From: Agarivorans litoreus
GTDB lineage: Bacteria; Pseudomonadota; Gammaproteobacteria; Enterobacterales; Celerinatantimonadaceae
Assembly: GCF_019649015.1 (NCBI RefSeq)
Contig: NZ_BLPI01000001.1
Coordinates: 1,897,001 to 1,961,000 of the forward strand
DNA: 64,000 nucleotides
Reading direction: 5' to 3'
Of the stretch, positions 11,067 through 35,582 are shown piece after piece. The translations under genes were made by a program, and so were the position numbers. Each line of letters opens with the position of its first letter. Positions within the stretch are counted from its first letter, which is position 1. The notes below the pieces were generated by a model, which worked only from the letters and a program-made list of their open reading frames with translations, was not told the DNA's origin and searched no databases.

Positions 11067-11094
11067 TTTACCTATTACAGTTAAGGAATAAGCC

Positions 11095-13071: not shown

Positions 13072-13073
13072 TA

Positions 13074-13988: not shown

Positions 13989-14001
13989 ATCAGGAAGTAC
14001 C

Positions 14002-15651
14002 ATGCGCCACTTACGAATTAACCTAGCTACTTGGGTGCCGATATTCTTTATCATTTTGTACCTATTACCTTTGGGTCTGCGTGACCTTTGGTCTCCCGAT
14101 GAACTACGTTACGCTGAGATCTCTCGAGAAATGGTGAGCAGTGGCGACTGGATAGTTCCTCGCTTTAACGACTTACGCTACTTCGAAAAACCAGTCATGG
14201 GTTACTGGATGAACGCGGTTTCGCAACTTGTTTTTGGCGAAACTAACTTTGCGGTGCGTGCAGCCTCAGCCTTTAGCGCTTTAGGGGCAGCTTTTTGTAT
14301 ATTCCTACTGCTTGCTCGCTTTGCCTCCCGCCCAGTAGCTTGGTTAAGCTCCGGCATTTATTTAAGCATGTTTATGGTGTCTGGCGTGGGCACCTACAGC
14401 GTATTAGACAGCATGCTTAACCTTTGGCTAACCGCCAGTTTTACTGCTTTTTACTTTGCCATTCGCAGCGAAGAACTGCGCCAACGAACCAAATATTATG
14501 GTTTGGCCGGTTTTTATTGTGGCTGTGCGGTACTTACCAAAGGCTTTTTGGCCCTAGCGTTACCGGTACTGGTGGTGGTTCCCTACATGATTTGGGATAA
14601 GCAATTTAACACCATTTTGAAATGGGGTTGGTGGGTAATGCTACTTGCCGTTTTAGTTTGTCTGCCATGGGGCTTAGCCATTCATGCTGCAGAGCCGGAC
14701 TACTGGCACTACTTTTTCTGGATTGAGCATATTCAGCGCTTTGCTGCAGATAACGCCCAGCACTCAGCCCCAGTTTGGTACTACCTGCCGTTTTTAGCGG
14801 CTGGCGTTTTACCTTGGCTATTTTGGTCGCCCAGTGCAATTGGCCACTTAAAAGGCCAAATGCACTTGCCACTGTTACGCTACGCCTTGTTGTGGGCGAT
14901 ATTGCCGCTGCTATTCTTCTCCATGGCTAAGGGCAAACTCGCTACCTATATTTTGCCAATAATGGCACCGCTGGCGATCTTGTTTGCCTTTGGTATTCAA
15001 CAGGCTTTTACCAAATCTTGTAAGGGTTTAACCTGGGGAAGCTGGTTAAATGCAATTTTATTTGCACTCCTTGCCGTTACCACCTTGGTACTGCATTACG
15101 CGGGCAAACTGCCACTAGATGCCGAAGAAGCTTACCGTCCCTGGTTACTATTTAGCATCTTTGCTTTTTGGTCGGCCATGGCCTTTGTGGCTATCAAAGC
15201 CACCAGCCTAAACGGCAAAGTCGCCAGCTACATGCTAATGCCTTTGGGCTTATTCATGCTGGCTTGGGCAACCTTCCCAAATGTAAGTATCTACTCAAAA
15301 ATGCCGGCGAAGTTTATGCAGCAGATTGCCCATTTAGTCGAACCCAATACGGTGTTAGTAGCCGATTACCCCGACACTATGTCGGCACTTAACTGGTACT
15401 TTAAGCGAGAAGATGTATACCTCGTTGGCCAAAAAGGCGAGGTGCGTTATGGCTTGGAATACCCAGATTCCCAGCATCGCTTTATCGAAACTAAGCACTT
15501 AGCTGAATTTATTGAGCAACAACGCCAGCATGCCCCGGTAATGGTTTATTATCGCGACAAACCTGATATGAAAGGCAGTTTGCCCGAAACCACTGAACGT
15601 ATCGACAAAGGTCGCTATACCGCACTTTATTACCAAGCAGTTGCTGACTAA
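14002..15651 (+). CDS. arnT: Undecaprenyl phosphate-alpha-L-Ara4N transferase (lipid A aminoarabinosyltransferase)
   Basis: A 549-residue integral membrane glycosyltransferase (GT83). The family's N-terminal acidic loop is seen in LRDLWSPDELRYAEISREMV, then GYWMNAVSQLVFGE and a chain of about 11-12 hydrophobic helices, with a soluble C-terminal domain after ~430. It transfers L-Ara4N from undecaprenyl phosphate to lipid A phosphates on the periplasmic side. I start it at the ATG at 14002, preceded by AGGAAG, 13 bp after arnD; the in-frame ATG at 13966 lies inside arnD. Length matches E. coli ArnT (550). Confidence 0.95.
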   Translation: MRHLRINLATWVPIFFIILYLLPLGLRDLWSPDELRYAEISREMVSSGDWIVPRFNDLRYFEKPVMGYWMNAVSQLVFGETNFAVRAASAFSALGAAFCIFLLLARFASRPVAWLSSGIYLSMFMVSGVGTYSVLDSMLNLWLTASFTAFYFAIRSEELRQRTKYYGLAGFYCGCAVLTKGFLALALPVLVVVPYMIWDKQFNTILKWGWWVMLLAVLVCLPWGLAIHAAEPDYWHYFFWIEHIQRFAADNAQHSAPVWYYLPFLAAGVLPWLFWSPSAIGHLKGQMHLPLLRYALLWAILPLLFFSMAKGKLATYILPIMAPLAILFAFGIQQAFTKSCKGLTWGSWLNAILFALLAVTTLVLHYAGKLPLDAEEAYRPWLLFSIFAFWSAMAFVAIKATSLNGKVASYMLMPLGLFMLAWATFPNVSIYSKMPAKFMQQIAHLVEPNTVLVADYPDTMSALNWYFKREDVYLVGQKGEVRYGLEYPDSQHRFIETKHLAEFIEQQRQHAPVMVYYRDKPDMKGSLPETTERIDKGRYTALYYQAVAD

Positions 15652-21424: not shown

Positions 21425-22696
21425 ATGTTCAAAAAAAGCGTAGTTTTGTTAACTCTTCTGCTAGCCAGCGCTGTGGGATGCCAGTTTTTTAGCCAGTACC
21501 AATATCAACAACAGGCCGCTCAGCTACTCGCTCAACTCAACCAACAACATTCGTGGTCGTATAAACAAACAATAACCCACAAAGACTGGTTATCTCGCCA
21601 AGAGCAATGGCAGATTGAGGGTAATCTTGCAGACTTAGGCCTAGAGCCCTATCCATTTAGTGTCGTTTTGCAACACAAAGTAAGGTTTTGGCCTTTATGG
21701 CTAAGTGGTGAATGGCAGGTAGATGCTTCGCAAGGAGATTACCAACACTGGCTACGCGACTTTCAGTTAAGCAAGATCCCCCATCTCGGCCAATGGCAGG
21801 CTAACATACTCACTCAATCCTTGAAGCAAACACTCAGCATTGATGATTTTGAGCACACCTATCCCCAGCTAAAACTTCACTTCAAATCACTGCAGCTATC
21901 GGCAACTAGTGACCTAAATTTTTCAGCCGGCACTGCAGAGGTTCTGTGGCAAGGGATGCTGCTAGATGACAACTCTCAGAACGGCGACCATATTCATCTC
22001 GGACAAGTAAAAGCCGAGGAACATTTTAGCCAGCGCCAAGGATGGACCTTAGTCGAAAACGCAAAGTGGTCTATTGATGAGTTAAAGCTACAATTAGAGC
22101 AAGGTGAAACAGAGTTAGACTTAAAAAAACTGGCGGTAACCAACCAATTTAGTGAACAACAACAACGTGCATACATGAGCGTAAATAGCTCTTTAGAACA
22201 ATTTAGCTTTAAAGAAGCCCAACAACGCTTCAAGTTGAATGACCTAATTCTTACTTCCAAGGTCGGTGGTGTGCCGATGCAGAGCCTAGTAGCGTTAGCA
22301 AACGCTAACCAACAACAAGGTTCAGAACAAAATTTAGATGGCTTGGTGCAACACGCTGTTTCAGAGGGTCTCGAATGGCAGCTCGATCAATTAGCATTAA
22401 AGGTTAATTCCAATTTCCAAAACCTCGCTTTAGTGGGCGACATACATTTATCGGGTACCGCTAAACTACTGCCATTTGAGTTAACAGCGGTGAACAGTCC
22501 ACTGCAGTTATTACGCTACCTAGACCTAAATGTAGCCCTAGACACCAACGATACTCTGTTTAACTATAGCCCCTTATCCTCCTACATTATGGCGCTTCGC
22601 ACTGCTGGCTACGTGATTAATCAAAATGGCCGAGACCAAAGTAAGCTTATTTTTAACGACAGTGAATTCACTATGAATAACTTGCCGGTAAACTAA
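21425..22696 (+). CDS. DUF945/YdgA-like envelope protein
   Basis: A 423-residue protein with a hydrophobic N-terminal segment ending LLASAVGCQFF; the cysteine could be a lipobox (SAVGC), otherwise the segment is an anchor. The rest is an alternating beta-rich sequence with the layout of the YdgA/DUF945 family (GVPMQSLVALANANQQQ...; PLQLLRYLDLNVALD...; YIMALRTAGYVINQNG near the C-terminus). The function of this family is not established. Monocistronic, divergent from the PAP2-like gene. Family call moderately secure. Confidence 0.65.
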   Translation: MFKKSVVLLTLLLASAVGCQFFSQYQYQQQAAQLLAQLNQQHSWSYKQTITHKDWLSRQEQWQIEGNLADLGLEPYPFSVVLQHKVRFWPLWLSGEWQVDASQGDYQHWLRDFQLSKIPHLGQWQANILTQSLKQTLSIDDFEHTYPQLKLHFKSLQLSATSDLNFSAGTAEVLWQGMLLDDNSQNGDHIHLGQVKAEEHFSQRQGWTLVENAKWSIDELKLQLEQGETELDLKKLAVTNQFSEQQQRAYMSVNSSLEQFSFKEAQQRFKLNDLILTSKVGGVPMQSLVALANANQQQGSEQNLDGLVQHAVSEGLEWQLDQLALKVNSNFQNLALVGDIHLSGTAKLLPFELTAVNSPLQLLRYLDLNVALDTNDTLFNYSPLSSYIMALRTAGYVINQNGRDQSKLIFNDSEFTMNNLPVN

Positions 22697-22892: not shown

Positions 22893-23858
22893 CTACTGTT
22901 GCTGCTGTTTCTTTAGCTGTTCCATGAAATGGGATTGAGCTTTAGTTGAACCAGCACGCTCTGCCTCCTCCACTAGGTTTAAGGCCCTAGAGAGGTCATT
23001 CTTTTCTACCGCTTTGCTAATCTGCTCAAGATAAAAGTTCTCGGTATCGCTGAGCATTTCTTCTTTAGTTTGGCTAGCTACTACTGCTGTAGTTGCTGTT
23101 GCTGCCGCGGCAGTGCTCGCTGATTCAGCTTTTATTGGCGCTGGCTCAACGGGCGTAACATTCTGTTGGGTTGTGCTTGCTGGTGCAGTAACAAAAGACG
23201 AACTAAACAACACGTCAGCAAAGCGAATATCTAAGTTACCAATTGGTGAATGCTTAGAGTAATACTTAAAGGTAGCTGGCAACCCTCCGCCAGTTTTTTC
23301 TTCATAGACAGTTTTAGGATCAATCAATTCGGTTCTACCAGCAAACTCGGAGGCCTGACTATAAACCAATATATAACGAGCACGCTTAGCTTGCTCTGGC
23401 TGTAATTCTTGCTTTATGCTGAGGAACCCTTCCTCGTTGAGCGTAGTGTCTTCAACTCTGAGCACTTCTTTAAGCCTTTCATCATAGAAAATAACAGTAG
23501 GTACAAATACCGTTCTGCCAACAATGCTATCTAAATAAAAGGTAAACTGAGTGATGTTTTCAGGAATTAACAACGCAGCTGTATATGAGTTGCCTTCAGG
23601 GAAACGTACCACTGGTGATTTTTCGGTAATATCGATGCGGTTTGTTCTATCTAAAGCTAATAACTGGTATTGCAGTTGAGCGGGAAGCAATGGAGAAACA
23701 TTATTTGACTGCAGATTGGCAGCAATTTTTGCCTCATCTACAAATTGAGTGTTCCAAGTGCGAAACGGATCAGTGACTTCAAAAGGCCTCTCATCACCAG
23801 AGCTTGAACAGCCGCTAGCTAATATACAGCCCACAATTACCGTTAATACTTTTTTCAA
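22893..23858 (-). CDS. MalM-like periplasmic lipoprotein
   Basis: A 321-residue lipoprotein: signal peptide MKKVLTVIVGCILASGC with a lipobox cysteine at residue 17. The middle (FPEGNSYTAALLIPENITQFTFYLDSI, VFVPTVIFYDERL, RYILVYSQ) fits the MalM family, encoded beside lamB in maltose operons of enterics and vibrios and of unknown exact role. The C-terminus adds a low-complexity Ala/Thr/Val linker and a helical tail (KAVEKNDLSRALNLVEEAERAGS) of TPR-like appearance. It lies 88 bp after the porin gene on the same strand, so they form a two-gene unit. Here the neighbours concern beta-glucosides rather than maltose. Confidence 0.82.
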   Translation of the reverse strand: MKKVLTVIVGCILASGCSSSGDERPFEVTDPFRTWNTQFVDEAKIAANLQSNNVSPLLPAQLQYQLLALDRTNRIDITEKSPVVRFPEGNSYTAALLIPENITQFTFYLDSIVGRTVFVPTVIFYDERLKEVLRVEDTTLNEEGFLSIKQELQPEQAKRARYILVYSQASEFAGRTELIDPKTVYEEKTGGGLPATFKYYSKHSPIGNLDIRFADVLFSSSFVTAPASTTQQNVTPVEPAPIKAESASTAAAATATTAVVASQTKEEMLSDTENFYLEQISKAVEKNDLSRALNLVEEAERAGSTKAQSHFMEQLKKQQQQ

Positions 23859-23946
23859 ATTACCACCTCTTTATTGTGGGCGCTAAACACTTAGCGCCCA
23901 CTCCTTGGTTGAGTACCTTAATAAACAGTACTCAGCTTAGCTCGGC

Positions 23947-25158
23947 TTACCACCAAGCTTCAACCATGGCACCAACTTTTGTTAGATCTACATCTTCTTT
24001 ACCATCAGTTGTCACTTGGCCTGTTACCGCGTAGAAGCGAACTACAGGACGTGACCACATGAAGTGACCCACTTGGAAGTTTTGCGACAAGGTGATTTTC
24101 CAAGCGTCACTGTCGTTGGTAGAGCCACCAACTTCTGTACGCTGGGTAAAGTGCATGCCTGCTTCAATAGCGGTAGCCATGTATTCATTCCAATGATGCT
24201 GTGGACGCACAGCAAATGAATACTCTTCTTTTTCATCAAACGAACAACCAGTCTCCTTACAATCAACTAACAAGTAGTTAGCGTTGTATTCCATAGCTGT
24301 CATTTCACCGAAGTTAACTGCACCATCTAAGAACACACCGTAAGAAGCCGCTTCTTTATCTTCATAGTTAGACCAGTTTTGGCCGGCAGAGTTAGAAGAA
24401 ATAAGTGCTGCTGCGTCAGTTTCATAACGAGCCGCCACTTGGAACCAACCATTGCTCAAGCCTTGACGGTAAGAAGCAAATGCTTGCCATGCGTCATTAT
24501 TCTCGATCTGGTCATTCAAATCAGAAGTGGTAAAGGCATAGTTAGCGCGGAATTTAAGTGCGCCTTGCTCGCCTACTTTAATGTCGTGAAGGTTCACATG
24601 CAAAGAGTTAACAGAACCGTTTTTATTGCCCGGATCTGTACCGCCACCACCTTGCGACCAACCCAAATCAAGTTGCGCAAAACCTAAGTTGAGGTTATCA
24701 ACACCCGCACCAGAGCCGTCGGCACTAAGCATGAAATAATCACTTAAGCCACCTTGCTCACGACCGTAAAAGCGTTTGCCTGCCCATACATAAGCATCTG
24801 GTTGAGAAGCAAAGATACCTTTACCACCACCGTAGAATTGAGCTAGGCCGATAGTATCGCCCCAAGTAGGAGAGTAGCCAGGAGTGTTTAACATGACGTT
24901 CATGTCAAACTTAGCATCGCCATTCTCAAAACCTTGAGTAAGCATAAACTCCATCCAGTTATCTTCGTTACCTAGACGGCCAGCACCATTAATTTCGCCG
25001 TGCTCGCCTTTAAACTGAACGATAGGGTCGCTAGATGCTTCAAGAGCATAGCGGCCGTAACCAGAGAAATTGGGGGTACCAGCGAATGAGCTAAGTGAGG
25101 TTGCCGCGGACGCGACTGCAATTGCAATTGTAAGCGCTTTCATTTTCATTTTGTTCAA
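23947..25158 (-). CDS. LamB-like carbohydrate porin
   Basis: A 403-residue outer-membrane porin of the maltoporin family: Sec signal peptide (MKMKALTIAIAVASAATSLSSFA), N-terminal NFSGYGRYALEAS, then YVWAGKRFYGREQGGLSDYFML, a hallmark LamB stretch, and a C-terminal strand ending in tryptophan (VGAMVEAWW). Trimeric beta-barrels of this family pass oligosaccharides by a greasy slide of aromatics. Transcribed with the malM-like gene. Codons 5-9 (AAAATGAAAGCGCTTACA region) contain a LacI-type operator sequence at 25129-25142, unusual for coding DNA. An internal start at MKMKALT (codon 3) is equally possible. Substrate is inferred to be beta-glucan oligosaccharides from context. Confidence 0.88.
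   Translation of the reverse strand: MNKMKMKALTIAIAVASAATSLSSFAGTPNFSGYGRYALEASSDPIVQFKGEHGEINGAGRLGNEDNWMEFMLTQGFENGDAKFDMNVMLNTPGYSPTWGDTIGLAQFYGGGKGIFASQPDAYVWAGKRFYGREQGGLSDYFMLSADGSGAGVDNLNLGFAQLDLGWSQGGGGTDPGNKNGSVNSLHVNLHDIKVGEQGALKFRANYAFTTSDLNDQIENNDAWQAFASYRQGLSNGWFQVAARYETDAAALISSNSAGQNWSNYEDKEAASYGVFLDGAVNFGEMTAMEYNANYLLVDCKETGCSFDEKEEYSFAVRPQHHWNEYMATAIEAGMHFTQRTEVGGSTNDSDAWKITLSQNFQVGHFMWSRPVVRFYAVTGQVTTDGKEDVDLTKVGAMVEAWW
25129..25142. promoter_or_regulatory. LacI-type operator inside the porin signal-peptide codons
   Basis: TGTAAGCGCTTTCA (read as TGAAAGCGCTTACA on the porin strand) is identical in its 14-bp core to the site at 25983-25996 before the GH116 gene. It encodes M-K-A-L-T of the signal peptide. 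A repressor bound here would act as a roadblock within the gene. Confidence 0.65.
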
Positions 25159-26024
25159 CTCCGTGTGAATCTTGAAATTTTATTGGAAGCTTTTTTTATA
25201 TATGGCCAACTAGCCATGGTTTAGCAGTATAGAGCTCAAAATAAGATAAATAAGTGACCTTCATCACTAATGAAAACGCTTGCAAATAGCAGTGATCACA
25301 TTTCAACCAAATTTCATACGTTCTGTTTCATGAAATATACTTCAAAAAACCGCCAATACAAGAAAGCACTTACACACACAAGTGGTTGATTTATATAAAT
25401 AAAAATACGTGCAAAATTGGCAGAGAAATACTCATGAAACAAATGATGTTTTTTCACATAGAGAAGTTCATTACAAAAAACAAACTATGTGAGATGTATC
25501 AAAATTTTTTTTCAAAGTGATCATTTATACAATATATAACGCTGCAATAAACCAAAACACGCGATGCAAACTAGGCATTTAATGGGCTGGCGATAAACTC
25601 ACTTGCGTTATTACTTCAACGTTAAGCAAAAAGCATAAAACAAATGTTAACGCCCACAGTTCTCCCTCAGAAGTGGCACCTGGATACTCATGACCTCCAC
25701 ACTATTTAGTTATTAACAAACTTAACCCATGTTTTTAATAGGCAAACCGTTTTCACCAATAGATGTACAAGCTGAAAAACCAAGTTCATTTAACAGAACA
25801 AGTCCCAAATCCCCTAATCTATATGGCTCATAGCCAACCATAGAACATAAATAATCGATATAAACTAACAAAAAATGACGGCTTCTTTCATAGCTTTCCT
25901 ATTACGAAATCTTTTATTGAAGCCGATCACTTTTTCGAATTGAGGCGCTAAACAAGCAAACTGCAACTGTTAACATGCCATGTGAAAGCGCTTACACATC
26001 TAGGTATTTTAAGAGGTTAAATCA
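25159..26024. promoter_or_regulatory. 866-bp divergent control region between porin and GH116 genes
   Basis: No gene is supported in this AT-rich stretch. It holds two CRP-like sites (GTGA-N6-TCAC at 25254-25267 and TGTGA-N6-TCAAA at 25488-25503) and LacI-type sites at 25271-25286 (TGAAAACGCTTGCAAA), 25361-25376 (AGAAAGCACTTACACA) and 25981-25998. The 500 bp from 25520 to 25980 show nothing recognisable to me. The size is unusual for a divergent promoter. Confidence 0.6.
25981..25998. promoter_or_regulatory. LacI-type operator before the GH116 gene
   Basis: TGTGAAAGCGCTTACACA is a near-perfect palindrome centred on GCGC, of the GalR/LacI type, 26 bp before the GH116 start codon. The same core is seen before the lacI gene of this region. 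Confidence 0.8.
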
Positions 26025-29000
26025 ATGTTGCATCGTTATACCGCACAATCCAGTTATCACGGCCAAGTAAACGACTTGATGAGCCCAGGGTTAGCGGATG
26101 AGTTTATTCAACCTTGGTACGTACCTTTAAGTACGACTCCAGCAGATACAGGAATTGCTTTAGGTGGCATTGGCAGTGCTTATACCTTTACCCCAGCGGG
26201 TACAACGCCGCTATTACATATACTGCCCGGCCTGCATTTAAGCGACCAACAGCGTGATAGCCTGCGTTTAGAAGACTTCTACTTAAGCCAAACTCCGGCC
26301 GACCAGCAACAGCTGCTTATTGTTAACCTCAGCGATTTCCAACAAAAGCAAAAATTCTTTCCGCTAAGCAAGGCTGAGCAAGCACCGTTATTTACAGTAG
26401 ACATGAGTGTAGATGCGCAACTTGCAACACTCCAGCAGCTACTTAGTGAACCAGAGTTCTATCAGTGGAATGCTGCAAACTTAGAGCGCTGGCAGGTCGA
26501 GCTATCCAGCAAGACTCAACAACTGATTGCAAGCGCTCAGCGGCCTACTCAGCTAAACATAAGCTGGCTATTAGATTTTTACGATGGTGCCCTAGGCCTG
26601 CAGCAGCAATCACAGCAGGCCTTAATTGGCGACTGGGAGTCCCCGCAATATAACGGTGTAGCGGCTTGGCCTTGCGAGCAAATAGATTACAGCGCTCTTT
26701 ATCCAGTGGCTAAACAACAGTTTAGCGGCCAGCAAGCAATTCAGGTGAGTAAGTATCACTACAGTCCGGTTATTCCTAATCATGAAGATTGGGCAGCGTT
26801 ACCAGTAAGTTATACCCGAGTGGTATTACACAACACCAGCGACCAGCGCCAAAGCTTTAGCCTAGTAAGATGCCTAGAAAATCTTTCTGGTTTTCAAGCA
26901 ATAAAACAGCGCCCCGGGGTTCAAGATGCGGCATGTAGTTTGGTAAGAGCAGCCAATGCTCAGCAAGCCCATGCCACCAGCTGGCAAACTGAAAGCAGCC
27001 ATCACTGCGCCATAGAAATGAGCGGTAAAGCCAGCCCTGGCGTGGACTTTGATGGCCAAAGCTGTATCTCGGTATCGGCGCCAACGCAGTGTTGCGTAAG
27101 TGCAAAACCTTATTTTTATAGCAACACCAGTGCCCAACAGATTGCTGGAGCACTCGCCAGTGGACGCTTTGCACAGGCGGTTGACCGTGGCATTTATAGC
27201 GGGCGCGAACTAAGCTCGAGCGCCTTGTGTGTTAGCGGTGAGCTAGCCCCAGGCGAAAGTGTTGAGATCTTATTCTCGCTGGTTCTCGACTTCCCGCATA
27301 TTCAATTACCCGGCTTAAGCAGCCAGAAAAAATACCGCCAGTTCTACCCAGAGTCGCAAGGCCGCGCCTTAGCCATTTGTAAGCACGCCATTGAAATAGA
27401 ACCTCAAGTGCAAGCAGCCCTAGCGACGGTTAATCAACAATTAATGCCCGATGCATGCTTGGATACGCTACCCATGTCCACCAGCGGCAAGGCCGAAACC
27501 CGCACGCTAGCGCTAAACACCTTGTCTTTTTTGGCTGAAGCTACAGTGTGGGATGAACAAGATCGATTCTTAGTACGAGAGTGTGCTGACTATCCATTTT
27601 TCAATTCCTTAGATGTTTACTTTTACGGTTCATTCTCGCTGTTACAGTGCTTCCCACGCTTAGATGGGGCAGTAATGCGCCACTTCTCACAGGCTGTTTT
27701 AGCGGAGAACAGCATTGTTCGTCGCCACCACGAGTATGTAGGCCTGCCGCATGCAGACCTACCCAATAGCAAAACCGAAGGTCCTCGCGCAGTGCGCGGC
27801 GCGGTGATTCATGATCTCGGCAGCCCCTTTGATGCTAAACCCGATGCCTATGATTGGCACAACGTTAAAGAGTGGAAAGATTTAGCCCCCAAATACATCT
27901 TAATGCTGTTGCGCCATTACCGCTTTCACGGCGATAAGGCTTTGCTGCAAGATTGCTGGGAAGCTTGCCAAGCAGCCATGCATTACCTACAAGCAATGGT
28001 TGAGCCTGGGCAATGTTTCCCATTAACCCGTGGTACCGACGACACCTTTGATAACCTGTCTTCGCACGGTATTTCGGTATATTGCGGTTCTTTGTGGATA
28101 GCCAGCTTAGAAGCTTACGCCTGCATTGCAGAACTGCTAAACAAAGCCAGTATTCCACAAGAATACCGCTACCTTGCCAGTCGCGCTCGTAAGCAATTTC
28201 AGGCCAGTTTATGGGATGAAAAAGCCGGCTACTTCCACTTTTATGTTACGCCTTTGCAAATTGGTGACGTAACAGAAAAACGGCGCGAGCAACTGATCAC
28301 CAGCTTACGCAACTGCCCATTTGCTCAGCAGTTAAAGCTAAAACAAAACAGCTGCTCTGTGGAACTGGTGGAAGCGCTTAACCGCTGGTTATCTACTCCT
28401 GAACTGTTAGAACTTGGTGAGCTTACAACAAGCGTTGAGCGCTTGTGGGCTAAGCACCATAGCAGCCAAACTTGGCCTATTGACGCCGAAAATCCAAAAT
28501 TATGCCGCCAACTTCGTAAATTAGCGCTAGTTGCCTTGGGCGATTTTTGGCAACCCTCATGGTTAGATAAGCTAAGCCTAGACAGTGACGACAGCTTTGC
28601 CGACCAGTTATTGGCCGATAGCTACTGCCGGATGTTGCAATTGCCTGCAGTTTCTAGCGAGCAACAACAACGCCGCGCCTTAGAGTACGTTTATAAACAC
28701 AACTACCAAATAAACAGCGCGCGAGTAGGAGCAGCCAATTTAGTTAGCCGCAGCGGCGAAACTAAAGAGTGGGATAATTTTCAAGCTCACGATGTGTGGA
28801 TTGGGGTGCAATACTCTTTGGTCAACGCCATGGCTGCCTTAGGCATGCAACAGCAAGCGGCGGATTTACTTAGCGCCTGCTACCGAAATTTGTACCATGA
28901 CGCACGCGTTCCTTTTGCGGCACCAGAGGGCTTTAACGCCAGTTGCCGCTTTGACGCCAAGCAGTTTGCCCAGCTAGATGAGCCCGCAGCAGCCGAGCTT

Positions 29001-29255
29001 AGCAAAGCGCTTATCGAGCTAGGTTTACTTTATGAAGATGGCCGAATCGCCGCCGATATTCCACGCCAGCTCAGCGAATTTAAGCTGCGCAGTGCCGCTG
29101 TGTGTCAACACTTTCAGTTAGACAGCCAAACGCTGTTTTACGCCCTTCACCATACCGGATTGAAGTACACCGCTGGTCGCTACTTCCGCCCTGGGATGAT
29201 CTTTTCACTGCCTTTGGTTAGCTCAACAGCCAAATCAGAACAGCATTCAGCCTAA
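26025..29255 (+). CDS. GH116-family beta-glucosidase-like enzyme
   Basis: A 1076-residue protein without a signal peptide, so cytoplasmic. The N-terminal domain has TGIALGGIGSAYTFTPAGTTP, the entry motif of the GBA2/DUF608 type beta-sandwich. The (alpha/alpha)6 domain contains RECADYPFFNSLDVYFYGSF, where E519 fits the family's nucleophile, and RGTDDTFDNLSSHG...YCGSLWIA, where D676 fits the acid/base (family knowledge from human GBA2 and TxGH116: Glu and Asp about 150 residues apart; here 157). Known GH116 enzymes cleave beta-glucosides, beta-xylosides or GlcNAc-ases. Start ATG 26025 after AGAGGTTAA. Followed 15 bp later by the GH94 gene, so an operon. The substrate is not certain. Confidence 0.8.
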   Translation: MLHRYTAQSSYHGQVNDLMSPGLADEFIQPWYVPLSTTPADTGIALGGIGSAYTFTPAGTTPLLHILPGLHLSDQQRDSLRLEDFYLSQTPADQQQLLIVNLSDFQQKQKFFPLSKAEQAPLFTVDMSVDAQLATLQQLLSEPEFYQWNAANLERWQVELSSKTQQLIASAQRPTQLNISWLLDFYDGALGLQQQSQQALIGDWESPQYNGVAAWPCEQIDYSALYPVAKQQFSGQQAIQVSKYHYSPVIPNHEDWAALPVSYTRVVLHNTSDQRQSFSLVRCLENLSGFQAIKQRPGVQDAACSLVRAANAQQAHATSWQTESSHHCAIEMSGKASPGVDFDGQSCISVSAPTQCCVSAKPYFYSNTSAQQIAGALASGRFAQAVDRGIYSGRELSSSALCVSGELAPGESVEILFSLVLDFPHIQLPGLSSQKKYRQFYPESQGRALAICKHAIEIEPQVQAALATVNQQLMPDACLDTLPMSTSGKAETRTLALNTLSFLAEATVWDEQDRFLVRECADYPFFNSLDVYFYGSFSLLQCFPRLDGAVMRHFSQAVLAENSIVRRHHEYVGLPHADLPNSKTEGPRAVRGAVIHDLGSPFDAKPDAYDWHNVKEWKDLAPKYILMLLRHYRFHGDKALLQDCWEACQAAMHYLQAMVEPGQCFPLTRGTDDTFDNLSSHGISVYCGSLWIASLEAYACIAELLNKASIPQEYRYLASRARKQFQASLWDEKAGYFHFYVTPLQIGDVTEKRREQLITSLRNCPFAQQLKLKQNSCSVELVEALNRWLSTPELLELGELTTSVERLWAKHHSSQTWPIDAENPKLCRQLRKLALVALGDFWQPSWLDKLSLDSDDSFADQLLADSYCRMLQLPAVSSEQQQRRALEYVYKHNYQINSARVGAANLVSRSGETKEWDNFQAHDVWIGVQYSLVNAMAALGMQQQAADLLSACYRNLYHDARVPFAAPEGFNASCRFDAKQFAQLDEPAAAELSKALIELGLLYEDGRIAADIPRQLSEFKLRSAAVCQHFQLDSQTLFYALHHTGLKYTAGRYFRPGMIFSLPLVSSTAKSEQHSA

Positions 29256-29270
29256 TAATTTGAGGTAAAT

Positions 29271-31685
29271 ATGAACAAGCAATACGGTTACTTCGATGAC
29301 CAAAACAAAGAATACGTTCTAACTACGCCAAAAACGCCGATAAAATGGGCGAACTACGTAGGAACTTTAGACTTTGGTGGCTTAATTGATACCACTGGTG
29401 GCACCGTAGTATGTAAGCAAGATCCGGCGTTAAACCGTATCACCAAGTATATTGCTCAGCTGCCTCAGTCTGAGTTCAAAGGCTCAACCATTTACATACG
29501 TCGTAAAACTGAGCAGGGCTACCAGCTATTTTCTCCGTTTTATACGCCCTGTTTAGAAGCCTTAGACAAGTTTGAATGCCGAGTAGGTTTGTCGTACACC
29601 CGCTGGGTTGTGGAAGCACAAGGTCTACAAATTGATGTGAAAATCTTTGTACCACAAGGCTCTAACACCTTATTGCAAGATATTAAGGTGACTAACATTA
29701 GCCAGCAAACACAAGCAGTTGATGTAGCGCCGGTGTATGAATTCACCCACTTCGATGCATTAAAGCAGCTAGTTAACGCCGACTGGGTTCCACAAACCAT
29801 GACCCTGAAGGCTCACGCTGAAGATAGCGGCCATGTAGTGTTAGAGCAGTACGCCTTTATGAAACGTGATAGCGCGGTGAACTACCTAAGCTGTAACCGC
29901 CCGGTAGATTCATGGGAAGGCGACCGACGCGTATTTTTAGGCGATAACGAGTTTGGTTCTTGGTCTAAGCCCTTGTCGTTACAGGAAGAAAGCTTAAGTA
30001 ATTCTGAGTGTGACCGCGGCGATAACGTGGGCGCATTGTTGGTTAAGCTGGGCGAACTGGCACCAGGGCAAACAGAGCGAGTAATCACTCAACTTGGCCA
30101 AGTACCTAGCTTGCAAGAGGCCGAAGCGGACATTGCTTTATACCGCAATGAACAAGCCGTTGACCAAGCCTTTGCCGAGCTAAGCGGTTTCTGGGAAAAC
30201 TACCTTGATGTCATGCAAGTAAACACCCCAGACAACGCCATGAACTCTATGCTAAACGTGCACAATCCACGTCAATGCCATACCACCAAAAACTGGTCTC
30301 GCTACTTGTCGCTTTACCAGCTAGGTTATGGTGCTCGTGGTATTGGTTTCCGTGACTCCTCGCAAGACTTAATTGGGGTAATGGCGCACATGCCGCAAGA
30401 AGCACGCGAGTTTGCCGAGCGCTTGCTGTCGGTGCAGCTAGAAAATGGCTCTGCCATGCACCAGTACTTCCCGCTCACTATGGAAGCCAACGAAGGTGAT
30501 TCACGTGAAGAGCCTGATTGCCCAGATTACTATGGTGATGACCACTTATGGATCGTGCTTACCGTTGCGCAATACTTAAAAGAAACTGGTGATTTAGCAT
30601 TCTTAAACAAACCCATTACTTACTACAGCAAAACCCTAGAGCTGGCCGACCGCAGCCAAGGTAGTGTTTACGAGCACCTACTAAAATCCATTGATTTTAC
30701 TTGGAATAATATTGGTGAGCATGGCCTGCCTCTATTAGGGTTTGCCGATTGGAACGATACGGTTAACTTACCAAGTGGCGCAGAATCTTTATTTGTAGCC
30801 AACCTATTTGGTAAAGCCTTAAAAGAGCTAATCGACATTGCGTCAGCCATCGATGATAAAGCAAACTTAGAGCTGCTTAACGGCTACTACCAAGAAATGA
30901 AGCAACGGGTGAACCAACATGCTTGGGATGGTGAATGGTGGGTACGCTACTTTACCAACGAAGGCGAGCCGATTGGTTCTCATAAAAATCAGCATGGTAG
31001 CTTGTATACCAACGGACAATCTTGGCCGGTTATTTCAGGTTTTGCCGAAGGCGACCGAATGCTGGCAGGCCTAGATGCTGTAAATCACAAACTCAATACC
31101 AAGTACGGCATTATGTTATCGGGCCCTGGCTACAACGGCTTTGATCCTCAGCTTGGTGGGGTAAGTACTTACCCACCGGGAGCAAAAGAAAATGGCGGCA
31201 TTTTCCTGCACTCTAACCCTTGGGTAATGATGGCAGAAACCATTGCTGGCAACGGTGACCGAGCATTTGAATACTACAACCAAATTAACCCGGCTTTCCA
31301 TAACGACAACTTGGATGTGTTCCAATCAGAACCTTACTGTTACCCACAAAACATATTAGGTGCAGAGCACAAACAATTTGGTATGGGGCGCAATGCTTGG
31401 TTATCTGGCACCTCAGCTTGGACTTACGTGGCGGGAACCCAATACATACTAGGTATTAAACCTACTCTGGTAGGCCTAGAAGTTGACCCATGTATTCCAA
31501 AAGCTTGGCCAAGCTTTAGCGTGAAACGTCGCTACCGTGGCGCCCAGTACAATATCACGGTGAGTAACCCTCAAGGTGTTAGCTCAGGCGTAGCAAGCAT
31601 TAAAGTTAACGGTGAAGCAATTAGCGGTAAGGTGCTTCCGGTATTTAACGATGGTGAACATCAAGTAGAAGTAGTGCTAGGCTAA
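29271..31685 (+). CDS. GH94 beta-glucoside phosphorylase (cellobiose/cellobionate phosphorylase-like)
   Basis: An 804-residue cytoplasmic phosphorylase. The opening (YGYFDDQNKEYVLTTPKTPIKW), the sandwich domain, then YGARGIGFRDSSQDLIGVM and the active site YYGDDHLWIVLTV (Asp pair at 423-424) are GH94 hallmarks; LLGFADWNDTVNLP and NGQSWPVISGFAEGDRM follow. GH94 enzymes split beta-linked disaccharides with phosphate into glucose 1-phosphate and a monosaccharide. Classic cellobiose phosphorylases have FNDDPLW at this site, so this one may use another disaccharide (cellobionate, laminaribiose or similar). Length fits cellobiose/cellobionate phosphorylases. Co-transcribed with the GH116 gene; a strong terminator follows. 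Confidence 0.88.
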   Translation: MNKQYGYFDDQNKEYVLTTPKTPIKWANYVGTLDFGGLIDTTGGTVVCKQDPALNRITKYIAQLPQSEFKGSTIYIRRKTEQGYQLFSPFYTPCLEALDKFECRVGLSYTRWVVEAQGLQIDVKIFVPQGSNTLLQDIKVTNISQQTQAVDVAPVYEFTHFDALKQLVNADWVPQTMTLKAHAEDSGHVVLEQYAFMKRDSAVNYLSCNRPVDSWEGDRRVFLGDNEFGSWSKPLSLQEESLSNSECDRGDNVGALLVKLGELAPGQTERVITQLGQVPSLQEAEADIALYRNEQAVDQAFAELSGFWENYLDVMQVNTPDNAMNSMLNVHNPRQCHTTKNWSRYLSLYQLGYGARGIGFRDSSQDLIGVMAHMPQEAREFAERLLSVQLENGSAMHQYFPLTMEANEGDSREEPDCPDYYGDDHLWIVLTVAQYLKETGDLAFLNKPITYYSKTLELADRSQGSVYEHLLKSIDFTWNNIGEHGLPLLGFADWNDTVNLPSGAESLFVANLFGKALKELIDIASAIDDKANLELLNGYYQEMKQRVNQHAWDGEWWVRYFTNEGEPIGSHKNQHGSLYTNGQSWPVISGFAEGDRMLAGLDAVNHKLNTKYGIMLSGPGYNGFDPQLGGVSTYPPGAKENGGIFLHSNPWVMMAETIAGNGDRAFEYYNQINPAFHNDNLDVFQSEPYCYPQNILGAEHKQFGMGRNAWLSGTSAWTYVAGTQYILGIKPTLVGLEVDPCIPKAWPSFSVKRRYRGAQYNITVSNPQGVSSGVASIKVNGEAISGKVLPVFNDGEHQVEVVLG

Positions 31686-31702
31686 GCCTCGCAACAAACA
31701 CA

Positions 31703-31732
31703 AAAAGCCAGCGCAATGCTGGCTTTTCTATT
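31703..31732. terminator. Bidirectional terminator between GH94 and ABC-ATPase genes
   Basis: Ten-bp stem AAAAGCCAGC/GCTGGCTTTT with a 5-base loop, with T-rich sequence on both outer sides (TTTTCTATTTTG on plus, TTTTTGTG on minus). It lies 18 bp after the GH94 stop and 25 bp after the convergent ATPase stop. Confidence 0.85.
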
Positions 31733-31756
31733 TTGTGTATCGTTGCTTAGAGAATA

Positions 31757-32854
31757 TTAAGGCTGAGCTAAAGACTCTTGAGTTTCACCGTCAAACAAGT
31801 GTACAAAGGTGGCATCTAAGAAAATATCTAATGCACCAGGTAAATCACCGTGCTCTGCGGGTGCTTCAATAATAATATTTTGCCCACCAAACTCCGCTTT
31901 AACATGCATAGTTGCGCCCAATAATTCACTATCTGTGAAAGTAGCTTTAGCGGCAATCACATGGCTAGGCTCAAGCTGCTTTTCGTGCAAATGAATATCG
32001 TTAGGGCGAATGCCCAAGGTTAGCGCTTGGCCTTCTTGCAACTTCCCAACAAACTTCTCAGGAGCTTTAATCTCTTGGCCTGCTAACTCCAAAAACCACT
32101 CACCTTGCACCTGCTTGGCCTTAGCTGGGATCATATTCATCGACGGAGAACCGATAAAGCCAGCAACAAACTGGTTTTTAGGTTGAGTAAATACTTCATA
32201 AGGCGTGCCAATTTGTGCAGTAATCCCTTTGTTCATTATCACAATGCGATCAGCAAGGGTCATTGCTTCTACCTGGTCGTGAGTCACGTACAAAGTGGTT
32301 ACACCCAACTTATTGTGCATATCCTTTATTTCTGCACGCATTTTGCCACGCAATTTAGCGTCTAGGTTAGACAGTGGCTCATCAAACAAAAATAGCTTAG
32401 GTGTGCGTACCATGGCGCGCCCCATAGCAACTCGCTGGCGTTGACCACCCGACAGCTGCTTAGGTTTGCGATTAAGGTAATCCGTTAGCTGCAGCATCTC
32501 GGCAGCCCACTCTACCGACTTCTTAATCTCTTCTTTCTTAACCCCTTGAACCTTAAGTGCAAATGCAATGTTTTCGTACACCGTCATATGTGGGTAAAGC
32601 GCGTAGCTTTGAAACACCATCGCTAAATCGCGATCTTTCGGGTCAACATCATTCAGGCACTTATCGCCCATTTTAATTTGACCCGAAGTGATGGTTTCCA
32701 AGCCGGCCACCATCCTTAAGATGGTTGATTTACCACAACCCGACGCACCGAGTAATACAACAAATTCACCATCACTCATCTCTATGTCGAAACCTTTAAC
32801 GATTTCGACTTTACCGTAGCTCTTACGAAGATCTTTAAATGACAGTGATGCCAT
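31757..32854 (-). CDS. Sugar ABC transporter ATP-binding protein (MsmK/UgpC type)
   Basis: A 365-residue ATPase of the carbohydrate uptake-1 (MalK/MsmK/UgpC) family. Walker A GASGCGKSTILRM, Q-loop MVFQSYALYPH, signature LSGGQRQRVAMGRAMV, Walker B LFLFDEPLSNLDAKLR and H-loop YVTHDQVEAM are intact; residues ~235-365 are the TOBE/OB regulatory domain (LGIRPNDIHLH). Start at the ATG at 32854 with AGGAGC ahead, 2 bp after the GH1 stop; the longer frame runs back through the GH1 gene and is rejected. No permease or binding protein lies in the window, so it probably energises a transporter located elsewhere, as multitask MsmK-type ATPases do. Confidence 0.93.
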   Translation of the reverse strand: MASLSFKDLRKSYGKVEIVKGFDIEMSDGEFVVLLGASGCGKSTILRMVAGLETITSGQIKMGDKCLNDVDPKDRDLAMVFQSYALYPHMTVYENIAFALKVQGVKKEEIKKSVEWAAEMLQLTDYLNRKPKQLSGGQRQRVAMGRAMVRTPKLFLFDEPLSNLDAKLRGKMRAEIKDMHNKLGVTTLYVTHDQVEAMTLADRIVIMNKGITAQIGTPYEVFTQPKNQFVAGFIGSPSMNMIPAKAKQVQGEWFLELAGQEIKAPEKFVGKLQEGQALTLGIRPNDIHLHEKQLEPSHVIAAKATFTDSELLGATMHVKAEFGGQNIIIEAPAEHGDLPGALDIFLDATFVHLFDGETQESLAQP

Positions 32855-32856
32855 AA

Positions 32857-34200
32857 TTATGCTCCTGCGCGTTGTTTTAGAAACTGCTGAAAGTAAGTAG
32901 CACTTTGCTTTGGTACTCGTTGCTGGGTATCGTAATCGACATAAACGATACCAAAACGCTTTTCGTAACCAAAGGCCCACTCGAAGTTGTCCATTAAGCT
33001 CCAAGCAAAATAACCTTTAAGTTCAACACCTTGTTCCATTGCATCAGCAACTGCATTTAAATGCGATTGATAGTAATCGCAGCGCTGCTGATCAATCACC
33101 TTGCCGTCTTCTAGGGTATCTGCCCCTGCCATACCATTTTCAGTAATAAAAATAGGCGGTAGTGAGTAACGTTCATCTAGCTTGGTGAGTAGCTCCGTTA
33201 AAGCCTGCGGACAGACTTCCCATCCCATATCAGTGCGCTCAACGCCCTCTAGAGTGACATGTTTGGGACCATTTTCGGTGGCTTTAATCACATGGCGGGT
33301 ATAGTAATTGATGCCTAAAAAGTCGATGGGTTGTTTTATTAGCGCTAAATCACCCGGCAGAATAGTTGGCCACCAGAGTGGTTGCTGCTGGCGAATAGCT
33401 TCTGGGTATTGCCCTTCGATGATTGGCTGTAAAAACCAATGAATACCTTGCTGTTCATCAAAGTCGGCAGCCAACACATCTGCAGCATTATTCGGATCTG
33501 CTGGATAAGCGGGCGTAAAATTAAGAACGATGCCATGCTCAGATTTTGGAGCATTTTGACGCATCTTTGGCAGAGCTAAACCATGTGCCAAAAGAATATG
33601 GTGGGCAGCCTGAAAGCCAAACTTATCTTCAGTTAAACCCGGCGCATGTTGGCCAAAACGATAACCTAAAAATGCACTACACAAAGGTTCATTAAAGGTT
33701 GCATAACTATATACTGAATCACCAAGTGCTTTGGTCATGATGTCGGCAAATTCGGCGAATTTATATGCAGTTTCACGACTCAACCAGCCACCTCTATCTT
33801 CGAGATATTGTGGCAAATCCCAGTGATACAAGGTAACAAAGGGCTTAATGCCTAACTGATTAAGCTTAGCAATTAACTGTTGGTAAAATGCGATACCCTT
33901 ATCATTTACCTGGCCTTCTACCGGCATAATCCGCGGCCAAGCTATCGATAAGCGATAAGCATCAACACCTAACTCTGCAATCATCTCCAGATCTTCTTCC
34001 CAGCGGTGGTAGTGATCACAAGCTATGGTGCCATCATCCCCGTTGGCGACTTTTCCTGGAGTGGCACAAAAGCGATCCCATATAGATTCGCAACGCTCAT
34101 CTTCTTGGTTAGCGCCTTCAATTTGAAAGGCAGCTGTCGCGACTCCAAAAATGAAATCACTACGGCGAAATGGGGACGACATTGGAAAATCAAAAGACAT
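32857..34200 (-). CDS. GH1 beta-glucosidase
   Basis: A 447-residue family 1 glycoside hydrolase, normal length. N-terminal DFIFGVATAAFQIEGA is the family signature; the acid/base glutamate is in YATFNEPLCSAF and the nucleophile in PPIFITENGMAG; GYFAWSLMDNFEWAFGYEKRFGIVYVDY closes the barrel. No signal peptide, so it acts on imported beta-glucosides such as cellobiose, releasing glucose. ATG at 34200 has AGAGG 8 bases ahead; an in-frame ATG 24 bp upstream lacks one. It lies between lacI and the ABC ATPase gene in one probable operon. Confidence 0.92.
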   Translation of the reverse strand: MSFDFPMSSPFRRSDFIFGVATAAFQIEGANQEDERCESIWDRFCATPGKVANGDDGTIACDHYHRWEEDLEMIAELGVDAYRLSIAWPRIMPVEGQVNDKGIAFYQQLIAKLNQLGIKPFVTLYHWDLPQYLEDRGGWLSRETAYKFAEFADIMTKALGDSVYSYATFNEPLCSAFLGYRFGQHAPGLTEDKFGFQAAHHILLAHGLALPKMRQNAPKSEHGIVLNFTPAYPADPNNAADVLAADFDEQQGIHWFLQPIIEGQYPEAIRQQQPLWWPTILPGDLALIKQPIDFLGINYYTRHVIKATENGPKHVTLEGVERTDMGWEVCPQALTELLTKLDERYSLPPIFITENGMAGADTLEDGKVIDQQRCDYYQSHLNAVADAMEQGVELKGYFAWSLMDNFEWAFGYEKRFGIVYVDYDTQQRVPKQSATYFQQFLKQRAGA

Positions 34201-34286
34201 ACAACAACCTCTAACTGCGCCCAATGGGTCACATATTACTGATATTTTTTGGATTTAAAGACGACCAGTTTTCACTGGAGATCGAC

Positions 34287-34322
34287 GTTAGCTATAAACT
34301 TACGAGAAAGCATATAGCTAAC
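34287..34322. repeat. Inverted repeat in the lacI-GH1 intergenic region
   Basis: GTTAGCTATA ... TATAGCTAAC, 10-bp perfect arms separated by 16 bases, in the 189-bp gap between lacI and the GH1 gene. No T-run follows on the minus strand, so it is not an obvious terminator; it might be an RNA hairpin that separates expression of lacI from the enzymes or a protein site. Confidence 0.45.
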
Positions 34323-34389
34323 ACCAAGCAAGGAGTCGTTTAATGATGGGTGGGATATTTCACATTCAACTCCTTACATGTTGATAAGC

Positions 34390-35391
34390 TTAACTAACAG
34401 GAGGGGCGGTAGACTCACGCACAATAAGCGAGGGCTCTAACTGCACACCATTTACTAAATTTTTATCGGCTAAATTTTGCAGCACCATATTGGCGGCAAT
34501 GGTGCCCATTTCCTCAATGGGGAAGCGAATGGTGGTGAGCTTAGGTCGCAAATAACGTGAATAGAACATGTCATCGTAGCCCACCACCGAGATACGCTCA
34601 GCCGGTGATTCGTTATCGCGCGACAAAATGTCATAAACACTAATAGCGATGTTATCGTTACCACACACCACCCCAGTAAAATCGATACCACGTTGAAACA
34701 ACTTAGCCGCCGCTTTGGTACCACCATCTTCTTGGTACAAACCTTCAACAATAAGCTGAGGATCGTACTCTAAGCCAGCTTCACTAAGTGCATTGCGATA
34801 ACCTTGCAGACGCTCTCGTGCATCAAAGTGCACTAAAGGACCAGTAATCGATGCGATACGTGTATGGCCTAAATCAATTAAATGTTTGGTGGCCAAATAT
34901 CCACCTAACTCATTGTTCAAATAAATACAGCGGTGCGCTAATTCAGGCACATAACGGTTTAATACAAACACATTGGAGTTGCGAGAGCACAACTCAATCA
35001 ACTCATCATCACTCATGGCTTGAACCACCAGCAAAATGGCATCTACCCGTCGTGAGTTAAGAAAACGAATAGCTTCACGTTCTTGCTCAATATTGTCATG
35101 CCCACTAGTGGCAATAAGGTGCTGACCTTCTTTTCGCAATACCGATTCAATGCTGTGCATCATGGGGCCAAAAAATGGGCCAGATAAAGTACCAACTACA
35201 ATTCCTACACTGTAAGAACGGTTGGTAGCCAGAGCTTGCGCAAAAGAGTTCGGTTGGTAACCCAATTTATCCATCGCGGCCATCACTCGCTCGCGATTAA
35301 CATCGGAAACCTTGTTGTTACCGTTCATTACTCTGGATACGGTTGCCTGTGAAACACCCGCTAGATCAGAGACTTCCTTGATTGTTGCCAT
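34390..35391 (-). CDS. LacI-family transcriptional regulator
   Basis: A 333-residue LacI/GalR regulator. The N-terminal helix-turn-helix is TIKEVSDLAGVSQATVSRVMNG, followed by the hinge and a periplasmic-binding-like domain (SVGIVVGTLSGPFFGPMM; HTRIASITGP; GVVCGNDNIAISV; VVGYDDMFYSRYLRPKLTTIRFP). LacI-type operators of the same core sequence lie in its own promoter, before the GH116 gene and in the porin gene, so it likely represses itself and the surrounding beta-glucoside genes until an inducer (a beta-glucoside or its product) binds. First gene of lacI-GH1-ATPase. Confidence 0.93.
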   Translation of the reverse strand: MATIKEVSDLAGVSQATVSRVMNGNNKVSDVNRERVMAAMDKLGYQPNSFAQALATNRSYSVGIVVGTLSGPFFGPMMHSIESVLRKEGQHLIATSGHDNIEQEREAIRFLNSRRVDAILLVVQAMSDDELIELCSRNSNVFVLNRYVPELAHRCIYLNNELGGYLATKHLIDLGHTRIASITGPLVHFDARERLQGYRNALSEAGLEYDPQLIVEGLYQEDGGTKAAAKLFQRGIDFTGVVCGNDNIAISVYDILSRDNESPAERISVVGYDDMFYSRYLRPKLTTIRFPIEEMGTIAANMVLQNLADKNLVNGVQLEPSLIVRESTAPPVS

Positions 35392-35414
35392 TGTTACTTT
35401 AGCCTCTCTGCATT

Positions 35415-35430
35415 TGTAAGCGCTATCACA
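35415..35430. promoter_or_regulatory. LacI-type operator 1 before lacI
   Basis: TGTAAGCGCTATCACA, 24 bp upstream of the lacI start codon. Shares the TGTAAGCGCT half with the sites at 25129 and 25981 (reverse complement). Suggests autoregulation. Confidence 0.72.
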
Positions 35431-35469
35431 TGAAACCTATCTGGGCACGATCAGATTTTAAGTCCACCC

Positions 35470-35484
35470 GTGAAAGCGCTTTCT
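35470..35484. promoter_or_regulatory. LacI-type operator 2 before lacI
   Basis: GTGAAAGCGCTTTCT, centred about 55 bp (near five helical turns) from operator 1. The centre is the palindrome GAAAGCGCTTTC. Two spaced operators permit DNA looping. Confidence 0.72.
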
Positions 35485-35582
35485 CTTAATATGACCGATT
35501 AAAGTCATTTGTGTCAATTGCCTTTACAGGCAGCAAATCTGATATGTGAGCCGCCGCAAAGTTTCGATTTTGTTGATGAAAA

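Follow-up and report, generated by a model that had tools for sequence, protein, structure and literature searches.

The locus considered here lies in a 64,000-nucleotide stretch of the Agarivorans litoreus genome (assembly GCF_019649015.1, contig NZ_BLPI01000001.1, forward-strand positions 1,897,001 to 1,961,000), called the window below; its genome carries the handle G000, and coordinates are window positions unless another contig is named. Between positions 22893 and 35484, a LamB-like porin and a MalM-like lipoprotein are encoded together with enzymes of the glycoside hydrolase (GH) families GH116, GH94 and GH1. These five families, named in a preliminary description of the region, were all found in place by Pfam or NCBIfam matches; that gene list had missed an ATPase of the ATP-binding cassette (ABC) type. 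The locus is composed as follows.

22893–23858, minus strand: MalM-like periplasmic lipoprotein (PF07148, E 4e-15; NCBIfam MalM 121.6 bits, below the cut-off of 295; lipobox-like start LASGCSSS)
23947–25158, minus strand: LamB-like outer-membrane porin (PF02264, E 2.1e-58; three solved maltoporins, E 3e-20 to 2e-19)
26025–29255, plus strand: GH116 beta-glucosidase-type enzyme, 1076 residues, predicted cytoplasmic (PF04685, E 1e-70; PF12215)
29271–31685, plus strand: GH94 inverting-phosphorylase-type enzyme, 804 residues (PF17167, E 4e-130; PF06165; catalytic Asp D496)
31702–31728, unstranded: stem-loop, terminator-like on both strands, between the convergent GH94 and malK genes (terminator scan, weak)
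31757–32854, minus strand: MalK-type ABC ATPase, 365 residues (PF00005, PF17912; nearest to the MalK of Vibrio clusters, 57–60%)
32857–34224, minus strand: GH1 beta-glucosidase (TIGR03356, 612 bits; cut-off 478.5)
34390–35391, minus strand: LacI/GalR-family regulator (PF00356, PF13377; recognition helix SQATVSR)

The GH116 and GH94 genes share a strand and are separated by 15 bases, and a crude hydropathy scan found a signal-like N-terminal stretch in lamB and malM and none in either enzyme, so that a cytoplasmic pairing of the two, as first proposed, is probable. The malK gene starts 2 bases past the GH1 stop codon. The genome contains one GH116 gene, two GH94 genes and six LamB-family genes, of which the window lamB is one. 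The GH1 enzyme is of the non-phospho type, passing TIGR03356 and staying under the cut-offs of the 6-phospho models, and its best solved relative is the beta-glucosidase 8puo. An assignment of LamB and MalM to a maltose system was rejected because both fall under their NCBIfam cut-offs (184.8 bits for LamB, cut-off 394) and the gene context is that of beta-glucosides. Little weight is given to the terminator scan of the region (14 sites; shuffled mean 14.2) or to a sigma-70-like promoter match at 35517–35488, as the promoter scan gave six matches and a shuffled mean of 19.8. All 169 matching plasmid records were below 60% identity.

The GH116 product combines both domains of its family with the catalytic pair of the beta-glucosidase TxGH116 (5bvu): nucleophile E441 corresponds to E519 and acid/base D593 to D676 (labels E441 and D593 taken from PDB titles, with an alignment numbering offset of 15). 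Five further site residues, which we take to be D452, H507, T591, W732 and E777 of TxGH116, correspond to D530, H596, T674, W925 and E968, and all seven window positions (E519, D530, H596, T674, D676, W925, E968) are invariant in 20 GH116 rows. The structural model (predicted local distance difference test, pLDDT, 85.3) matches TxGH116 in fold (template modelling, TM, score TMt 0.85; 18% identical over the fold alignment), but the protein exceeds it by about 280 residues and has an additional segment, at approximately 740–850, between the two catalytic halves. TxGH116 E730 is replaced by Asp (D923), and R786 falls outside the alignment. Since the catalytic pair and five more site residues are shared with TxGH116, the sequence supports the view that GH116 is a beta-glucosidase; the earlier idea that it trims a substituent gained no support.

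Both Pfam domains of the family are present in the GH94 product, as is the general-acid Asp, D496 (D490 in the cellobiose phosphorylase CgCBP). Among solved proteins it comes closest to cellobiose phosphorylases (E 1e-159), followed by chitobiose phosphorylase (E 1e-131), while laminaribiose phosphorylase (E 1.7e-20) and classic cellodextrin phosphorylase (CDP; E 1e-23) are distant. The model (pLDDT 80.7) gave TM scores of 0.90 to cellobiose phosphorylase, 0.86 to the Blautia GH94 8bou and 0.81 to laminaribiose phosphorylase. In a tree of 25 sequences, 12 rows from Agarivorans, Alginatibacterium, a genome of the same bacterial family (G011), Vibrio and SAR324 formed one group with 100/100 support, apart from cellobiose phosphorylases, chitobiose phosphorylases and 8bou; cellobiose phosphorylase is a weak sister (81/77), and given a long-branch warning only the separateness of the clade is used here. 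No characterised member of this clade was found, as far as could be seen.

The clade resembles the cellobiose phosphorylases CgCBP (2cqs) and CtCBP (3qde) in fold, length, catalytic Asp and Y653, both residues being kept in 12/12 rows, and differs from them in the same 12/12 rows by N156 replaced by Asp, E649 by Gly, N667 by Ser (7/12) or Ala (5/12), the loss of R166 and the absence of loop 495–509. None of the four cellobiose-phosphorylase site features R166, E649, N667 and loop 495–509 is thus present in any row. The loop blocks subsites +2/+3 in cellobiose phosphorylases and is absent from CDPs, whose functional marks are the lack of the loop, Ala 649, Ala 667, an aromatic residue at 166 and Asp 163; the loop, E649G and N667A have been tied to longer acceptors, and the engineered variant OCP2 (N156D, N163D, T508I, E649G, N667A) takes cellobiose as acceptor (PMC7471185, available sections). 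Of the OCP2 changes, Asp 156 and Gly 649 are native to the window enzyme; its residue 667 is Ser, and the loop bearing T508 is missing. On the +2 side the clade shows the CDP marks in part: the loop is absent, 649 is Gly rather than Ala, 667 is Ala in 5/12 rows, 163 is still Asn, and an aromatic at 166 depends on the alignment. The partner of R166 is uncertain: phmmer pairs it with W172 and MAFFT with a T, and the model is below pLDDT 50 at residues 167–172. W172 was therefore not used as proof of a CDP-type aromatic, and since R166Y left OCP2 inactive (PMC7471185, same sections), an aromatic at 166 is no simple gain. The loop by itself proves nothing, because chitobiose phosphorylase lacks it too. 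BpGH94MLG of Blautia producta (8bou), in which this loop is likewise missing, cleaves cellotriose, G4G3G and G4G4G3G, and not cellobiose (PMC10318527, in the part of the paper available). Taken together, the active-site residues suggest that the window GH94 may likewise act on chains of three or more units.

Other specificities were considered and rejected. The enzyme is not a classic CDP of about 990 residues, having 804, no extra N-terminal domain and a distant match (E 1e-23); chitobiose was dismissed because the protein stands outside the chitobiose phosphorylase clade and keeps Tyr at 653, where the chitobiose phosphorylase mark is Val. Cellobionate, one of the sugars proposed initially, became less likely as a first choice, because the second GH94 of the genome stands with a LacI gene, gluconokinase and Edd (phosphogluconate dehydratase). 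That second enzyme (G000:C1:1046515-1049986, equal to L052:6516-9987) is 24% identical to the window GH94 and next to a LacI-family gene; the GntK-type gluconokinase and the phosphogluconate dehydratase lie beside it at L052:4173-6519, and the whole looks like a cellobionate pathway.

The six other Agarivorans genomes compared all have the genes in the same sequence from malM through lacI, a check proposed in the preliminary description, and this argues that the grouping is more than chance. Most neighbours of the locus are also kept in the congeners, the small gene u144 having no match in L016; identity to congeners is 86–99% for GH94 and 71–96% for GH116. In Alginatibacterium sediminis (G007, L069) GH116 and GH94 adjoin, with a GH31 gene upstream and an ABC importer and GH65 further off; lamB, malM, GH1 and lacI had no match in the 19.5 kb covered. 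G011 encodes a GH94 that is 77% identical, without GH116, as well as one gene of the cellobiose-phosphorylase clade. Among 60 related genomes, 13 gave GH116 matches: eight, including the window's own, of the window type (E <1e-60) and five weak only (E 9e-8 to 3e-4), those in G020, G046 and G054 falling inside GH94 genes. In a class-wide draw, window-type GH116 occurred in one of 369 genomes, namely that of the window, and the distribution is thus patchy.

A GH116-alignment scan of named genomes kept 80 of 109 relatives, comprising 23 Vibrionales loci, one each from Agarivorans, Alginatibacterium, SAR324 and Planctomycetota, and 53 from Fibrobacterota. In 21 of the 23 Vibrionales loci the genes for LacI, a solute-binding protein (SBP), two permeases, GH1, MalK, GH94 and GH116 follow each other on one strand, the GH94 being 62–66% identical to that of the window; all these loci were picked via GH116, so the count is blind to GH94 clusters without it. 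In 15 of the 23, GH94 and GH116 are separated by a gene of the aldose-epimerase type, and the L105 locus is cut by a contig end. The SAR324 genome also contains a GH94-GH116 pair. In the proteome of Fibrobacter succinogenes, a GH116 (FSU_3272, family level only) and a GH94 (FSU_0162) were 1.40-fold and 1.42-fold higher, respectively, on cellulose than on glucose (PMC6851124, available part). The pairing first described is thus confirmed, but the view of the combination as a one-off oddity gained no support, given the joint occurrence of GH94, GH1, MalK and GH116 in these 21 loci.

Upstream of the three gene groups of the locus, LacI-type operator-like sites were found.

25271–25284, unstranded: operator-like site before lamB, TGAAAACGCTTGCA (12/14; site of 12–13/14 at the matching place in 6/6 congeners)
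25361–25374, unstranded: second operator-like site before lamB, AGAAAGCACTTACA (12/14; 90 bases from the first, spacing kept in 6/6 congeners)
25983–25996, unstranded: operator-like site before GH116-GH94, TGAAAGCGCTTACA (14/14)
35415–35428, unstranded: operator-like site before lacI, TGTAAGCGCTATCA (13/14; matching-place site in 5/6 congeners)
35471–35484, unstranded: operator-like site before lacI, TGAAAGCGCTTTCT (13/14; matching-place site in 6/6 congeners; just downstream of the sigma-70-like match)

The site at 25983 lies 42–44 bases ahead of the GH116 start in the window genome and 6/6 congeners, and sites like TGAAAGCGCTTACA are found ahead of GH116 in Alginatibacterium, of GH94 in G011 and of the first LacI gene in all six Vibrio loci scanned. 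The stretch separating lacI from GH1 has no such site, which would make GH1 and malK part of one transcript with lacI. Genome-wide, 18 places have at most one mismatch, against three for a reversed-pattern control; three of the 18 are intergenic sites in the 12.6 kb of the locus (Poisson P about 2e-5, a value computed for a region picked with the sites already in view, and with coding/intergenic sorting covering window places only). Perfect 14-mers (14/14) inside genes, at window 25129–25142 (lamB), L057:6975 (LamB) and in Vibrio permease genes (e.g., L126:3106), were left out of the count, since their letters encode KALT or LKALT; such matches either mislead operator scans or are genuine operators within genes. 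Overall there are signs that lamB, GH116-GH94 and lacI-GH1-malK may be under shared control, in agreement with the common induction expected at the outset.

Nine LacI-family genes are present in the genome. One other LacI, beside two GH16 genes, has the recognition helix SQATVSR of the window LacI, as does the first LacI of the two Vibrio clusters examined (L109 and L126). At L055:6867-12128 and L058:4862-6226 the genome holds this LacI, 49.5% identical to the window's, with its GH16 neighbours, of which the one examined is laminarinase-like, as well as a GH30; near-identical operator-like sites occur at these genes.

Clues to the polysaccharide come mainly from the Vibrionales. GH9 lies near GH116 in five of the 23 loci, and two GH9s that were examined carry CBM4/9 and CelD_N domains; three of the five loci add a lichenase-like GH16, a LamB and a CBM-like protein, and the V. 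cincinnatiensis locus adds GH5. Of the 13 solved relatives of the V. ruber GH16 (E 1e-5 or better), six are labelled 1,3-1,4-beta-glucanase and four beta-glucanase, the other three being engineered constructs without such a label. Endo-glucanase, ABC importer and GH94 in one locus mark the Blautia type described below; GH9, ABC importer and GH94 fall within the flank in five of 23 Vibrionales loci (three with GH16), and in Agarivorans they are dispersed. There the GH9 (58% to two Vibrio GH9s) is away from the window and adjoins a LacI-family gene; in its DNA-binding part, the product of that gene is similar to the second LacI of the Vibrio loci. The nearest solved structure to the Vibrio-cluster SBP is labelled cellobiose-binding. 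In the window's genome this SBP has a single close relative, encoded at C1:2574007 (43%, E 6e-106, with E 6e-12 for the next best). The gene belongs to a stretch, L054:7175-15139 (G000:C1:2569174-2577138), that also holds two permeases, a further MalK, GH52 and XylR, and this region is the best candidate for the importer parts that the locus lacks.

From what the sequence itself holds, namely gene content, gene order, conservation, active-site residues and operator-like sites, we infer substrate, chain-length preference, division of labour, importer identity and regulation as follows. The locus is probably, in a reading that we hold with some reserve, LacI-controlled and devoted to the uptake and cytosolic breakdown of beta-1,4-containing gluco-oligosaccharides, either cello- or mixed-linkage. 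Secreted endo-glucanases encoded elsewhere would cut beta-1,4- or mixed beta-1,3/1,4-glucan, and LamB, with MalM, would let the oligosaccharides across the outer membrane. An ABC importer, with its SBP and permeases encoded elsewhere in the genome, would carry them to the cytoplasm, possibly powered by the local MalK. There GH94 would phosphorolyse the non-reducing beta-1,4-glucose of chains of at least three units, yielding glucose 1-phosphate, and would leave it to GH116 and GH1 to hydrolyse the remaining disaccharides and any linkage not open to GH94. In response to the sugar, LacI would come off the operators before lamB-malM, GH116-GH94 and lacI-GH1-malK. The beta-glucoside use and the energy saving through glucose 1-phosphate suggested initially are both supported.

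More tentatively, and perhaps improbably, the GH94 clade may represent an undescribed specificity, the size of a cellobiose phosphorylase but restricted to beta-gluco-oligosaccharides of at least three units (e.g., G4G3G from algal or plant beta-glucan), with the long GH116 as a dedicated partner for the leftover beta-1,3-linked disaccharide; together they would form a marine mixed-linkage glucan route.

Several observations weigh against the uptake and breakdown of beta-1,4-containing oligosaccharides under one LacI. The neighbours of the candidate importer, GH52 and XylR, suggest xylan, and the Agarivorans GH16 that was examined, with an operator-like site of similar sequence, resembles laminarinases and not lichenases. 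In GH94 itself, N163, which is Asp in CDPs, is unchanged in the clade, though 8bou keeps Asn too, and the tree places the clade apart from 8bou. As the search of the window's genome found no ordinary cellobiose phosphorylase, cellobiose might still be a substrate of the window GH94. Of the 21 first Vibrio LacI proteins, 15 have their best match in the GH16-side Agarivorans LacI and six in that of the window, which leaves the one-regulator link loose, and LacI-family proteins with other duties (AglR) share the AAAGCGCTTT core (PMC4052901, available part). As for the pairing, L144 (Vibrionales bacterium SWAT-3) has GH116 without GH94 inside 10 kb, and GH94 lies beside GH116 in none of the 53 Fibrobacterota loci, many with short flanks. 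In L144, GH1 and importer genes were also unmatched within 10 kb upstream of GH116.

Some of these points would fit a locus for oligosaccharides of laminarin, a beta-1,3/1,6-glucan, in which GH94 would phosphorolyse laminari-oligosaccharides and GH116 and GH1 hydrolyse the remainder. The host is marine, and the two secreted GH16s, of which the one examined is laminarinase-like, stand by the LacI that is 49.5% identical to the window's and the preferred match of the first Vibrio LacI (15/21), with near-identical operator-like sites that GH30 has too. We nevertheless consider it rather unlikely: laminaribiose phosphorylase is far from the window GH94 in sequence (E 1.7e-20 vs. 1e-159) and fold (TM 0.81 vs. 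0.90) when compared with cellobiose phosphorylase, the Vibrionales loci place GH9 near GH116 in five of 23 cases, three of them with lichenase-like GH16, and Y653, common to RtCDP, cellobiose phosphorylases and BpGH94MLG (PMC10318527, available part), is kept in the clade.

An ordinary cellobiose locus, with GH94 as a diverged cellobiose phosphorylase and GH116 and GH1 as redundant beta-glucosidases, appears unlikely as well. It would agree with the closest solved GH94 relatives in sequence and fold, with the weakly supported sister position (81/77) and with the failure to find another cellobiose phosphorylase in the genome. The changes at N156, E649, N667 and R166 and the missing blocking loop in 12/12 clade rows speak against it, and G011 possesses both a gene of the cellobiose-phosphorylase clade and a member of the window clade. 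Least plausible, to the point of being very improbable, is a locus for substituted or unusual beta-glucosides where GH116 takes off a blocking group, after which GH94 can act on the sugar thus laid bare, as the union of a long GH116 subfamily lacking an assigned substrate with an uncharacterised GH94 clade and the E730-to-D923 change would allow, because E519, D676 and E968 are residues of the TxGH116 beta-glucosidase and GH9, GH16 and GH5 in some Vibrio loci point to plain beta-glucan.

The closest known counterparts of the preferred scheme, import of beta-1,4-containing gluco-oligosaccharides followed by GH94, GH116 and GH1, come from other bacteria. The Vibrio fischeri cel cluster is under LacI-type beta-glucoside control, as here, but relies on a phosphotransferase system and glucokinase, unlike the ABC/GH94 type of the window. 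The mixed-linkage locus of Blautia producta comprises BpGH16MLG, BpGH94MLG and an ABC importer, and two cytosolic GH3 beta-glucosidases, detected by proteomics, act on the same oligosaccharides as BpGH94MLG (PMC10318527; this and the following comparison refer to the available part of the paper). Common to both systems are ABC import, a short-type GH94 without a long N-terminal domain or blocking loop, and finishing beta-glucosidases. The Blautia locus differs in its GH3 enzymes and AraC-type regulator, GH116 is not mentioned in that part, and the two GH94s are about 30% identical and not sisters in the tree. The Shewanella Bgl pathway has a LacI-type regulator, an outer-membrane transporter, beta-glucosidases and a beta-glucan source in common with the window locus, but uses a GPH-family permease, and no GH94 or GH116 is named in the available part of its description (PMC2996990). 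The Vibrio chaetopteri genome is reported to contain many GH1 and GH94 genes, with GH116 unmentioned in the portion available (PMC11945961). No description of a GH116-GH94 cluster of this make-up was found in titles and abstracts of open-licence literature, subscription papers lying mostly outside that scope. A closely similar logic (endo-glucanase, ABC importer, GH94, beta-glucosidases) is on record for B. producta (PMC10318527, available part). The parts and the logic are already known, while neither the GH94 clade nor the long GH116, nor the two in combination, is characterised as far as could be seen.

Elsewhere in the window, positions 8897–15651 encode matches to ArnB, a GT2 (ArnC-like), ArnA, a polysaccharide deacetylase and a PMT-family transferase (ArnT-like), i.e., a lipid A aminoarabinose set. 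Two open frames without a Pfam match follow, one of 761 residues at 16559–18844 with a sub-threshold GspN-like match and one of 423 residues at 21425–22696 that is fast-changing between congeners (44–75%).

If the proposed scheme is true, many Vibrio species and Agarivorans would share a defined gene set for energy conservation on beta-glucan oligosaccharides in the sea. It would assign a function to the GH94 clade and to the long GH116 subfamily, and the synthesis of oligosaccharides would gain a naturally occurring phosphorylase of the short type, specific for cellodextrins or mixed-linkage chains.

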